This document shows, one piece after another, positions 32,369-57,788 of a DNA stretch of 64,000 bases. Each line of letters begins with the position of its first letter. Position 1 is the first letter of the stretch. The translations under genes were made by a program, and so were the position numbers. Location: positions 682,001-746,000 of the forward strand of contig NZ_JACESV010000002.1 in NCBI RefSeq assembly GCF_013911645.1, read 5' to 3'. This DNA comes from Allomuricauda sp. (lineage in GTDB: Bacteria > Bacteroidota > Bacteroidia > Flavobacteriales > Flavobacteriaceae). Below the pieces are notes generated by a model, which was given only the letters and a program-made list of their open reading frames with translations, did not search any database and was not told the origin of the DNA.

Positions 32369-33022
32369 TCAAATATTCATTTCGGGAATATCTCCTTCCA
32401 CAACAAGTTTTCCTTCGGTTGCTTCTACGATTTCCTCAACGGTAACCCCGGGTGCTCTTTCCATCAATTTGAATCCTTCGGATGTGACTTCCAATACGGC
32501 AAGGTTGGTGACAATTTTTTTTACGCACCCTACACCGGTCAAGGGCAAGGTGCATCGTTTCAACAATTTTGATTCCCCGGCCCGGTTGGTATGCATCATG
32601 GCAACGATGATGTTTTCTGCGGATGCCACCAAATCCATAGCTCCTCCCATTCCTTTTACCATTTTTCCGGGTATCTTCCAGTTGGCAATATCTCCGTTCT
32701 CCGCTACTTCCATTGCCCCTAAAATGGTTAAATCCACATGCTGGCCCCGTATCATTCCAAAACTTAGGGCAGAATCAAAAAAAGAAGCACCTGGCAAAGT
32801 GGTTATGGTCTGTTTACCAGCATTGATGATGTCGGCATCCTCTTCCCCCTCGAATGGGAAGGGGCCCATGCCCAAAACACCGTTTTCGCTTTGAAATTCC
32901 ACACTAATATCGTCCCGTACAAAATTGGCAACCAAGGTGGGTATACCAATACCGAGGTTGACGTAATATCCGTCCTTGACCTCTTTTGCTATCCGTTTTG
33001 CTATTCCGTTCTTATCTAACAT
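32369..33022 (-). CDS. scoB: 3-oxoacid CoA-transferase subunit B
   Basis: GYYVNLGIGIPTLV, SENGVLGMGPFP and GAMEVAENGDIANWKIPGKMVKGMGGAMDLV motifs. Confidence 0.96.
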   Translation of the reverse strand: MLDKNGIAKRIAKEVKDGYYVNLGIGIPTLVANFVRDDISVEFQSENGVLGMGPFPFEGEEDADIINAGKQTITTLPGASFFDSALSFGMIRGQHVDLTILGAMEVAENGDIANWKIPGKMVKGMGGAMDLVASAENIIVAMMHTNRAGESKLLKRCTLPLTGVGCVKKIVTNLAVLEVTSEGFKLMERAPGVTVEEIVEATEGKLVVEGDIPEMNI

Positions 33023-33072
33023 GTTGTTAATGTGTCAATTAAGTAATTAGACAATATGCCAATTACTTCTAG

Positions 33073-33441
33073 TTATGTATTTCTTTTTGAGGTCGAAATT
33101 ATTTTGTTCAAAATTTTGATGATGTCAAACAATTCCGCCAATAACTTTTCAGCACTTGGATAATTATTCAGTTCGTTGCACAAGAAAAGCCAAAACTCAG
33201 TTTCTTCAGCTTCCTTCATTGCAATTTTCATCTTGTGCACAAAGTCAGCCTTGCTCTCCGCATTTTGGGCTTCCTTAATATTTGCTCCTATGGATGTTCC
33301 TGACTTTAAAACTTGGTTAGCTACCACGAACTTTCGAATACTTTCAAGTTTTTCGCCATATTCAACAACGTTTTTGGCAAATTCAAATGATTTTACCAAA
33401 ATAGTGTTGTCACTATACTTTTCACTAAAAGTTATCATCAT
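33073..33441 (-). CDS. Four-helix-bundle protein (23S rRNA IVP / S23 family)
   Basis: SGTSIGANIKEAQNAESKADFVHKMKIAMKEAEETEFWL motif. Confidence 0.9.
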   Translation of the reverse strand: MMITFSEKYSDNTILVKSFEFAKNVVEYGEKLESIRKFVVANQVLKSGTSIGANIKEAQNAESKADFVHKMKIAMKEAEETEFWLFLCNELNNYPSAEKLLAELFDIIKILNKIISTSKRNT

Positions 33442-33531
33442 ACTTTTTGAATATATCGCAATCCGTTAATTGATCCAGCCTAATCGACCCATTGTCACAT
33501 TGATTCATTGGCATATTGGCACATCGGCTTA

Positions 33532-34230
33532 TTATCTCGTTCTCACCGTTCGCTGCTCTATTCTTTTCTCAAATGATTTTCCTTGGAAAATGCGCTGTAC
33601 AAATATTCCGGGAATATGGATCTGGTTGGGGTCCAGACTGCCCGCCGGAAGTAGTTCTTCGACTTCCGCTACGGTTATCGTGGCCGCTCCGCACATACAC
33701 GGATTAAAATTCCGTGCCGTACCCTTAAAAATGAGGTTGCCGGCTTCGTCCCCTTTCCATGCTTTTACAAAAGCAAAATCAGCCTTGAACGCTGGCTCCA
33801 ACACGTACATTTTTCCATCGAATTCACGGGTCTCTTTTCCTTCTGCGACCTCGGTCCCGTAACCTGCCGGGGTGTAAAAAGCGGGAAATCCTGCTTGTGC
33901 CGCCCTGCATTTCTCGGCCAAAGTTCCTTGTGGTGTGAGTTCCACTTCCAGTTCCCCGCTCAGCATTTGGCGTTCAAACTCGTCGTTCTCACCTACATAG
34001 GAGGAAATCATTTTTTTTATTTGATGCTTCTGCAAAAGGAGTCCTAGGCCAAAATCATCGACCCCGGCATTATTGGATATACAGGTAATGTCCTTGACGC
34101 CCAATCGTACCAATTCGTCTATGGCATTTTCGGGTATTCCGCATAGGCCAAATCCGCCCAACATAAAGGTCATTCCATTCTTTACACCCTCCAAAGCTTC
34201 TGTAACATTGGCAACTGTTTTATTGATCAT
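33532..34230 (-). CDS. scoA: 3-oxoacid CoA-transferase subunit A
   Basis: [22 protein letters not shown] and [46 protein letters not shown] motifs. Confidence 0.96.
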
Positions 34231-50020: not shown

Positions 50021-50340
50021 TTTGACACGCCTGCCTGCCGACTTTAGGTAGGAATTGCACGGATTCCCTCGAATTTATTTTGTTTCACCACTGTTGTCAT
50101 TCCGTGCGGACGGGCAGATAACCATCAGGGGTACAATTGTTCTTGAGCTTGTCGGGAGTCGGATGTCCGAAGCACGATGCACGAAGTCAGTTGGCAGTAG
50201 GCAGTGGCAGTTTACAGCAATACAATAACTCCAAACTTAATTCGTGCAAATTTGTTTCAGGTCGTCATTCCGGATTTGTTTCGGAATCCCATAGGAGTGA
50301 GACCCTGAAACAAGTTCAGGGTGACGGGATTTCTCCCCTC
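50021..50340. repeat. Composite direct repeat, copy 1
   Basis: tttgacacgcctgcctgccg..ttccctcgaattt..ttgtttcaccactgttgt..cttgagctt..gggagtcggatg, then ggaatcccataggagtgagaccctgaaac..ttcagggtgacgggatttct. Confidence 0.85.
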
Positions 50341-57312: not shown

Positions 57313-57339
57313 TGCTTCGCTAATTATTAAGTTAATCGG

Positions 57340-57732
57340 TTATTGGTTTAAACTGTGTTTTAGTTTAGCATCCTTTAAATATTTGATATAACCGTTTAGT
57401 ATTTTTAATGTTCTGTTATGTAACTCTCTAAAGTTATTAAGTTTTTCCTTTGTGATATAGTTTTCATCAAACGCTATAATCATATGGTCCAAAGTTTCAT
57501 TCAAAGAGCCTCTTGCCATGGGGCAGAATTGAATGTTCTCTTGATAGTTGAACCTTCCAAACCCTTCTGCAATATTGTTCCCAACTGACCGGGAAGAACG
57601 CTTTATTTGGCTAACAAGCTCAAATTTTTCAGAATTGGGCAAAAGAGGAATGATTTCATCTTTAACATAATTTCTTAGAATTCTCGACTCTTTCCAACAG
57701 GCCAACTCTTCAAAAGATTTAAAACTTCCCAC
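57340..57732 (-). CDS. Four-helix-bundle protein (23S rRNA IVP / S23 family); GTG start
   Basis: SFEELACWKESRIL...RSSRSVGNNIAEGFGRFNYQENIQFCPMARGSLNETLDHM motif. Confidence 0.92.
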   Translation of the reverse strand: MGSFKSFEELACWKESRILRNYVKDEIIPLLPNSEKFELVSQIKRSSRSVGNNIAEGFGRFNYQENIQFCPMARGSLNETLDHMIIAFDENYITKEKLNNFRELHNRTLKILNGYIKYLKDAKLKHSLNQ

Positions 57733-57788
57733 TAATAATTCTACTGCTGTTCTTTATCCAATAACTTAAATAACAAATAACACAATAA

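Follow-up and report, generated by a model that had tools for sequence, protein, structure and literature searches.

What kind of genetic element places a gene of the S23/IVP (23S rRNA intervening-sequence protein) family between scoA and scoB, the genes for the two subunits of a CoA transferase? Intervening sequences (IVSs) have been studied for more than 25 years, mainly in rRNA. To our knowledge, the S23/IVP family has solved structures and hundreds of homologues and no known function. The initial annotation of the window, the whole 64-kb stretch of DNA analysed here, proposed that this gene and a companion between sdhA and sdhB represent an IVS-like class in Bacteroidota operons, and that interpretation is partly supported. 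The element amounts to little more than one S23/IVP ORF with an array of a 7- or 8-nt unit on each side; the unit is specific to the lineage, and the two arrays are inverted relative to each other. It stands in sense orientation within an operon, at a place where adjacent genes are otherwise 2–3 nt apart. Copies of a lineage mostly occupy one gap, their distribution among species is patchy, and copies from different species are closer to each other than the host genes are in the pairs examined. With slightly more confidence than doubt, we read it as an IVS-type mobile element that spreads horizontally and whose home is mRNA operons rather than rRNA.

Two S23 elements in the window

The ORF between scoA and scoB matches PF05635 with 78.7 bits against a curated cut-off of 33.8 (E 4.5e-22), and it shares the minus strand with both PF01144 neighbours, confirming the co-directional arrangement first described (Table 1). 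The AF2 model of the protein (pLDDT 95.5) has four long helices. Foldseek matches this model to the S23-family structures 2rld (TM 0.79–0.91) and 2gsc and, more weakly, to Avd (4dwl) and ribonucleoprotein structures of diversity-generating retroelements (DGRs; TM up to 0.82, E 0.3 or more). BT_0352 (2rld) and Xcc0516 (2gsc) have the same family and fold as the protein here, with five chains per entry, and both entries are listed as uncharacterised proteins. According to Lin 2006 (as cited in PMC4990558), Xcc0516 is a homopentamer.

Table 1. Features of the two S23 elements and their host genes; positions are those of the window.
Feature	Position	Strand	Evidence
scoA (CoA transferase subunit A), host gene upstream of the element	33532..34230	-	PF01144 E 1.2e-74
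scoB (CoA transferase subunit B), host gene downstream of the element	32369..33022	-	PF01144 E 2.1e-50
S23 / 23S rRNA intervening-sequence protein ORF, 122 aa, four-helix bundle	33073..33441	-	PF05635
Upstream flank of scoA–scoB element, 90 nt	33442..33531	-	lag-8 self-match, sequence
Downstream flank of scoA–scoB element, 50 nt, terminating at scoB start codon	33023..33072	-	lag-8, duplex
12-bp perfect inverted repeat, right half, within upstream array	33507..33518	+	sequence
12-bp perfect inverted repeat, left half, within downstream array	33052..33063	+	sequence
Second S23 ORF (locus L005), GTG start, between sdhA and sdhB	57340..57732	-	PF05635 E 1.3e-28; neighbours by Pfam
Upstream flank of sdh element, 56 nt (TTATTGTGTTATTTGTTATTTAAGTTATTGG...)	57733..57788	-	missing from related genomes' 6-nt empty sites
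Downstream flank of sdh element, 27 nt past ORF	57313..57339	-	empty/occupied comparison

The perfect 12-bp inverted repeat that had been noticed around the ORF is present, and a perfect repeat of at least that length between the flanks arises in 1 of 2000 first-order Markov shuffles (mean longest shuffled repeat, 6.0). It exists because the flanks hold arrays of one 8-nt unit in mutually inverted orientation. Directly after the scoA stop, a degenerate array of 8-nt units (TGCCAATA TGCCAATG AATCAATG TGACAATG and further ones) fills the 64 nt of the upstream flank nearest to scoA (33468–33531), and the downstream flank is an inverted array of the same unit (AATTGGCA TATTGTCT AATTACTT AATTGACA CATTAACA). 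The lag-8 self-match is 0.54 against 0.26 in shuffles for those 64 nt (0/5000) and 0.45 against 0.31 for the downstream flank (p 0.04); for lags of 5–12, the right-hand (upstream) array is the most strongly periodic stretch in the window. Beyond the perfect repeat, the arms show longer imperfect pairing, with a predicted arm–arm duplex of -25.4 kcal/mol against -14.2 +/- 4.3 in shuffles (p 0.017), and when the 516-nt transcript is folded at minimum energy, the arms close the structure (z -2.2). No Rfam match was found within the 64-kb window.

The reported S23 ORF between sdhA and sdhB is also real. Its product shares 29% identity over only 87 aa with that of the scoA–scoB gene, and the two proteins fall either side of a deep branch in the S23 tree, in agreement with the earlier view that they belong to divergent subfamilies. 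In the downstream flank of this second element, the matching CCAATAACC begins within the end of the ORF.

Arrays and operon gaps across the S23 family

PF05635 occurs in 59 of the 61 genomes of the genus, in up to 15 copies, and in 90 of 121 same-family genomes sampled at one per genus. Altogether 177 S23 loci were analysed, 97 from the genus and family and 80, representing many phyla, from a named collection. Loci were chosen by protein similarity, independently of their flanks, and gene calls are the longest ORF; the scan of the diverse sample used a four-protein alignment, and nine diverse S23 proteins had no sufficiently conserved stretch. When a 150-nt-flank alignment score is applied locus by locus, several loci are not significant alone. 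Because this single-locus score is too weak, pooling and restriction to intergenic flanks were used, and because many loci share descent, tests were made at the level of sites and on the diverse sample.

Intergenic flanks show an autocorrelation peak at 7 nt that recurs at its harmonics, 14 and 21 (z 13), and a subset of them peaks at 8 nt; among the diverse loci, the best lag is 7 or 8 in 74 of 80. The period follows the S23 lineage, being 8 in scoAB and rlu and 7 in most others. The units are lineage-specific, for example AGTATTG at fadB–fadA, GAGTTAT at atpA–atpG and GTTGATA at metH–metF, and they are kept within lineages across genera. A unit taken from the upstream arm finds its own downstream arm in inverted orientation at a median percentile of 0.04, against 0.25 in direct orientation. 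Across 89 unlinked elements, the two arms of one element pair at -27.35 kcal/mol, whereas permuted partners reach -14.47 +/- 0.56 (z -23). When 28 operon genes whose gaps were similar served as a control, the two flank pairs with the highest complementarity, found blind, were those of S23 genes. The flanking inverted repeats put forward at the outset therefore far exceed chance, but their form is that of inverted 7- or 8-nt arrays and not of simple terminal repeats. Arm pairing starts a median of 4 nt past the host stop and ends 7 nt short of the host start. Co-variation of the arms within a lineage is clear only in fadB–fadA (P<0.0002), with P 0.06 in scoAB and non-significant values in the others.

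The genomic setting of the elements is equally regular. Both neighbours are co-directional with the S23 gene at 94 of 95 scorable loci of the genus and family and at 64 of 76 diverse loci, so that 158 of 171 scorable loci overall lie between co-directional genes, against a background of 54% of genes (380/702) in 800 kb of this genome. Where the neighbours agree in direction, 158 S23 genes are sense and 3 antisense. Counted by distinct site, 29 of 30 are co-directional in the genus and family, and the exception (L014) may be a gene-calling problem. A preference for gaps between subunit genes of one enzyme had been suggested; what holds is a preference for operon gaps (29/30 sites against 54%), and it covers co-directional gaps generally, including those beside hemB, thyA, metF, rlu and prfA. 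Sites recognised by family search include scoA–scoB, sdhA–sdhB, serC–serA, metH(C)–metF, panB–rlu, nupC–thyA and phzF–hemB, while the fadB–fadA, atpA–atpG and trpG–trpD sites were identified from translated ends. The host gene pairs share no common function, and no rRNA was found around S23 at 16 other loci checked.

S23 elements also occur in Planctomycetes, Nitrospirae, Acidobacteria, Deltaproteobacteria, CPR, cyanobacterial plasmids and an archaeal MAG. The idea of an IVS-like class in Bacteroidota operons thus survives in its recurrence in operon gaps, and its restriction to Bacteroidota is rejected, since the range runs from Planctomycetes to the archaeal MAG. Sites include cas1–cas2 in a Nitrospirae MAG (L209) and cas6–cas4 on a Pseudanabaena plasmid (L280), both array-flanked, and a thiolase–OB-fold protein pair in a Methanophagales MAG. 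The cyanobacterial plasmid copies carry heptamer arrays, with inverted arms in 2 of the 3 read; the Pseudanabaena copy has long arrays, mainly in direct orientation.

Two further observations concern related arrangements. Flavobacterium columnare 94-081 and ATCC 49512 have a four helix bundle protein gene between gmk and nadD, with gaps of ~35 nt in 94-081 (PMC5524665 Table 5), an architecture like that of the S23 operon elements here; the same source lists this gene within a phage region. Separately, tandem lag-7/8 arrays occur without an S23 gene, and mostly without an inverted partner, at positions 50159 and 52175 of the window and elsewhere in this genome (G000:C1, e.g., 245448, 298330, 702806 and 769065).

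Empty sites, relics and probable transfer between species

The scoA–scoB junction is readable in 60 of the 61 same-genus genomes searched. The gap is 3 nt or less in 26 of these 60 congeners (mostly stop-NN-ATG, with one 1-nt overlap), and 17 carry a full S23 element in a gap of 392–509 nt, the arrays and ORF together spanning ~507 nt in this genome. Three relics (L107, L136 and L142) keep the arms with much of the ORF deleted, and in the remaining congeners the gap is taken up by a different small ORF, by a short hairpin or by some other sequence. Since the gap measures 2–3 nt when empty and hundreds when occupied, arms and ORF behave as one unit.

At sdhA–sdhB, this genome (G000) and G004 are occupied, while the close relative G017 and six others are empty as judged by flank spacing. 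TAA-GAAACT-ATG is the sequence of the empty site, with GAAGCT as the hexamer in two genomes, and an occupied site has TAA-(element)-GAAGCA-ATG. The host hexamer is retained, with GAAGCA still adjacent to the sdhB ATG. This comparison points to a fresh insertion. A target-site duplication, which the initial annotation had raised for such empty/occupied pairs, is not clear at this pair, the freshest insertion. An insertion sequence or DNA transposon with target-site duplication was accordingly considered and rejected: the element holds the S23 ORF only, and no clear duplication is seen at sdhA–sdhB.

These empty sites bear on the proposal that the arrays are pre-existing, slippage-prone hotspots where S23 genes merely landed. 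This genome does have 17 strong lag-7 stretches in 800 kb, S23-free lag-7 arrays exist, heptamer arrays have been published from Cyanobacteria, Xanthomonas, Beggiatoaceae and Geobacter (PMC4692102, PMC4679880, PMC2700814), and heptamer hairpins without an ORF stand at L290, L298 and L299. However, the empty scoA–scoB, sdhA–sdhB and fadA–acad sites (2–3, 6 and 24 nt) are free of arrays, the solo arrays of the genome mostly lack an inverted partner, and the period changes with the S23 lineage. The proposal is largely refuted, and we regard it as very improbable.

Other sequences also occupy such gaps. In seven congeners (L101, L118, L129, L139, L140, L147 and L153), the scoA–scoB gap holds a ~113-aa ORF unlike S23, with a CxxC...CxxC zinc-ribbon-like start, a hydrophobic C-terminal half and the ending ...FNKYTIRRK. 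It overlaps scoA and scoB through ATGA/TAATG in some congeners, accounts for seven separate changes on the scoA tree, and has as its only Pfam match a sub-threshold hit to Zn_ribbon. A ~50-nt hairpin of the GTCCCCTTGAGGGGACTTTAGGGGTGTT type fills the gap of L102, L108 and L131, and the hairpin of L138 differs. The fadA–acad gap is 24–25 nt when empty. ORF-less heptamer hairpins of 75–115 nt are found at L298 and L299 (the L003 site) and at L290 (the fadB–fadA site), where relatives carry S23; these are probably ORF-deleted or non-autonomous forms.

The S23 tree and the scoA tree describe how the elements are distributed. On the scoA tree, 12 changes are needed to account for the presence of S23 at scoA–scoB, and well-supported branches force 8 or more of them. 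In the S23 tree, the copies at scoAB (17/17), atpAG (5/5), hemB (7/7) and rlu (7/7) each form one clade, whereas there were 3 or more entries into fadB–fadA. The fad operon of this genome has copies in two adjacent gaps, and both belong to one clade. Synonymous divergence of S23 is low relative to scoA, with dS of 0.01 versus 0.29 for G000–G017, 0.15 versus 1.06 for G010–G048 and 0.19 versus 0.69 for G007–G035, scoA dS being saturated for distant pairs. In three genome pairs, the element is 99.2, 95.9 and 95.5% identical, against 95.3/95.5, 86.1/90.2 and 88.9/84.0% for the two flanking host genes, with identity climbing inside the element. The scoB start is likewise identical in the first of these pairs, as expected if a recombination tract were centred on the element. 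We read the low between-species divergence as probable horizontal spread into the same gap, which alone does not prove an element-encoded mechanism; transfer by ordinary homologous recombination needs none. Low S23 dS could also partly reflect constraint at the DNA level.

The ORF is under strong purifying selection. Its median omega is 0.07 over 21 close pairs, with 0.10 for L006 versus L041 (the value given for the scoA–scoB ORF), indicating that it is selected as a protein. Such selection would also suit a resident regulatory module, in which S23 binds its arrays in the operon mRNA and tunes the neighbouring cistrons or itself, with patchiness produced by loss and ordinary homologous recombination. 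The close abutment of the arrays on host stop and start codons (medians of 4 nt and 7 nt) and the retention of units within lineages across genera are consistent with this idea. Against it, 26 of 60 congeners do with a bare scoA–scoB gap and three retain ORF-deleted relics, the host gene pairs are functionally unrelated, and the low S23 dS relative to the flanks calls for additional transfer. We judge such a module unlikely.

Proposed mechanism, known relatives and meaning

As a mobile element, this unit would probably lack its own promoter and be expressed from the host operon. Its arms could pair in the transcript, where RNase III, whose gene is encoded in this genome, could cut the element out between cistrons, as it does for the Coxiella rRNA IVS (PMC4990558). 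Because the element sits between cistrons, we propose that no religation would be needed and both host proteins would still be made. By analogy with its solved relatives, we infer that the S23 protein may form a five-subunit ring that binds the arrays; the ~40-nt gaps on each side would offer about five to six units to this putative ring. The ring might then assist in copying the element, or in recombining it, into the corresponding gap in a different genome, and flanking homology would render each lineage site-specific.

The mismatches between the arms qualify one step of this scheme. On the sense strand, A.C mismatches outnumber G.U wobbles (147 versus 90, p 0.0003; swapped-arm baseline 415:410), and they do so in both samples. 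This is the opposite of what a sense-RNA stem maintained by selection predicts and gives such a stem no support. RNase III excision from mRNA is therefore unsupported by selection patterns and may be incidental; homology to the Coxiella system is what keeps it plausible. The A.C excess fits pairing on the antisense strand, selection against a sense stem or an unrecognised mutational bias.

Because the asymmetry speaks against a sense stem, an antisense-strand route is retained as the main rival. Here, an Avd-like S23 ring would chaperone an antisense copy, either cDNA or single-stranded DNA, with its arms folded back; the strand on which pairing matters would be the antisense one, and insertion would proceed through flanking homology or an exposed gap. 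Sense A.C mismatches are antisense G.T wobbles, which are thus the enriched class, and the near-uniform sense orientation of the elements, the resemblance of the fold to Avd and DGR ribonucleoproteins, and two adjacent RVT_1 matches in this genome (frames of 451 and 706 aa at G000:C2:556927–558893) are in keeping with such a route. However, no reverse transcriptase lies beside S23 elements with identified neighbours, those of this genome may be part of another system, Foldseek gives weak E-values for Avd, and the modest asymmetry could have a mutational cause. We consider this route rather improbable. A diversity-generating retroelement as such was rejected, the S23 neighbours being scoA and scoB and the reverse transcriptases of this genome lying elsewhere. 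Avd (4dwl, 8ub7) is a four-helix bundle with a fold common to S23, a structural likeness at 14–20% identity, but unlike Avd systems, the scoA–scoB locus has no linked reverse transcriptase, template repeat or variable repeat.

The closest counterpart to an IVS-type element in operons is the IVS in helix 45 of Coxiella burnetii rRNA, a 428-nt element with an S23p ORF and a 28-bp stem formed by its complementary ends (PMC4990558). Ahead of the ORF it has three copies of GACAGAT and one GACAGAA, with copy number varying among strains; RNase III excises it in vitro, with mapped ends; and it is sporadic and horizontally acquired, with the ORF deleted in some strains (PMC4990558). The elements described here share a comparable size (~430 nt in Coxiella), the S23p ORF, complementary ends, tandem heptamers, sporadic distribution and ORF-deletion forms. 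They differ in lying between protein genes of an operon instead of in an rRNA helix, in carrying arrays on both flanks, and in having an ORF under strong purifying selection where that of Coxiella is described as expendable. Of the features that define an IVS, complementary borders able to form a stem around an S23p ORF are present, as are sporadic distribution and horizontal acquisition. The site is between scoA and scoB and not inside a 16S or 23S rRNA gene (helix 9, 25 or 45), and with the rRNA location missing, the element is named IVS-type and not IVS.

Heptamer arrays have been described in Cyanobacteria, Xanthomonas, Beggiatoaceae and Geobacter, in accounts that interpret heptamer or octamer arrays as regulator sites or SSRs (PMC2700814, PMC4679880, PMC4692102). 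Arrays of Geobacter metallireducens are described as opposite-strand pairs at variable distance, one of them between proB and proA (PMC2700814), and the TAACTGA repeats (PMC4679880) and the GGGAATC repeats of Xanthomonas and Nostoc (PMC4692102) are, like those here, tandem 7/8-nt units in largely intergenic positions. S23 goes unmentioned in the main texts of PMC4679880 and PMC4692102. Among open-licence papers, none was found linking S23 to operon gaps, mobile elements or inverted repeats in such an arrangement.

Since the same package recurs in operons across many phyla, this rRNA parasite, about which little is understood, seems to be a widespread mobile element of operons. A wider synthesis, which we offer tentatively as a possibility, is that S23/IVP genes with lineage-specific inverted 7/8-nt arrays are phylum-spanning minimal mobile elements homing to intercistronic operon gaps. 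Their ring would read one unit per subunit and their mobile form would be an antisense single strand; rRNA IVSs would be the special case found in rRNA, and ORF-less heptamer hairpins would be non-autonomous derivatives.

For annotation, the arrangement matters because genes of this kind, though within core operons, are labelled as ribosomal or phage proteins (e.g., in F. columnare, PMC5524665). The combination of an S23 gene, mutually inverted 7/8-nt arrays and an operon gap is a cross-phylum rule that gives the family a genomic context, and it ties S23 to the heptamer repeats described in separate reports on Geobacter, Xanthomonas, Cyanobacteria and Coxiella. S23 function thereby becomes testable, as array binding by the ring, excision from mRNA and movement without a transposase.
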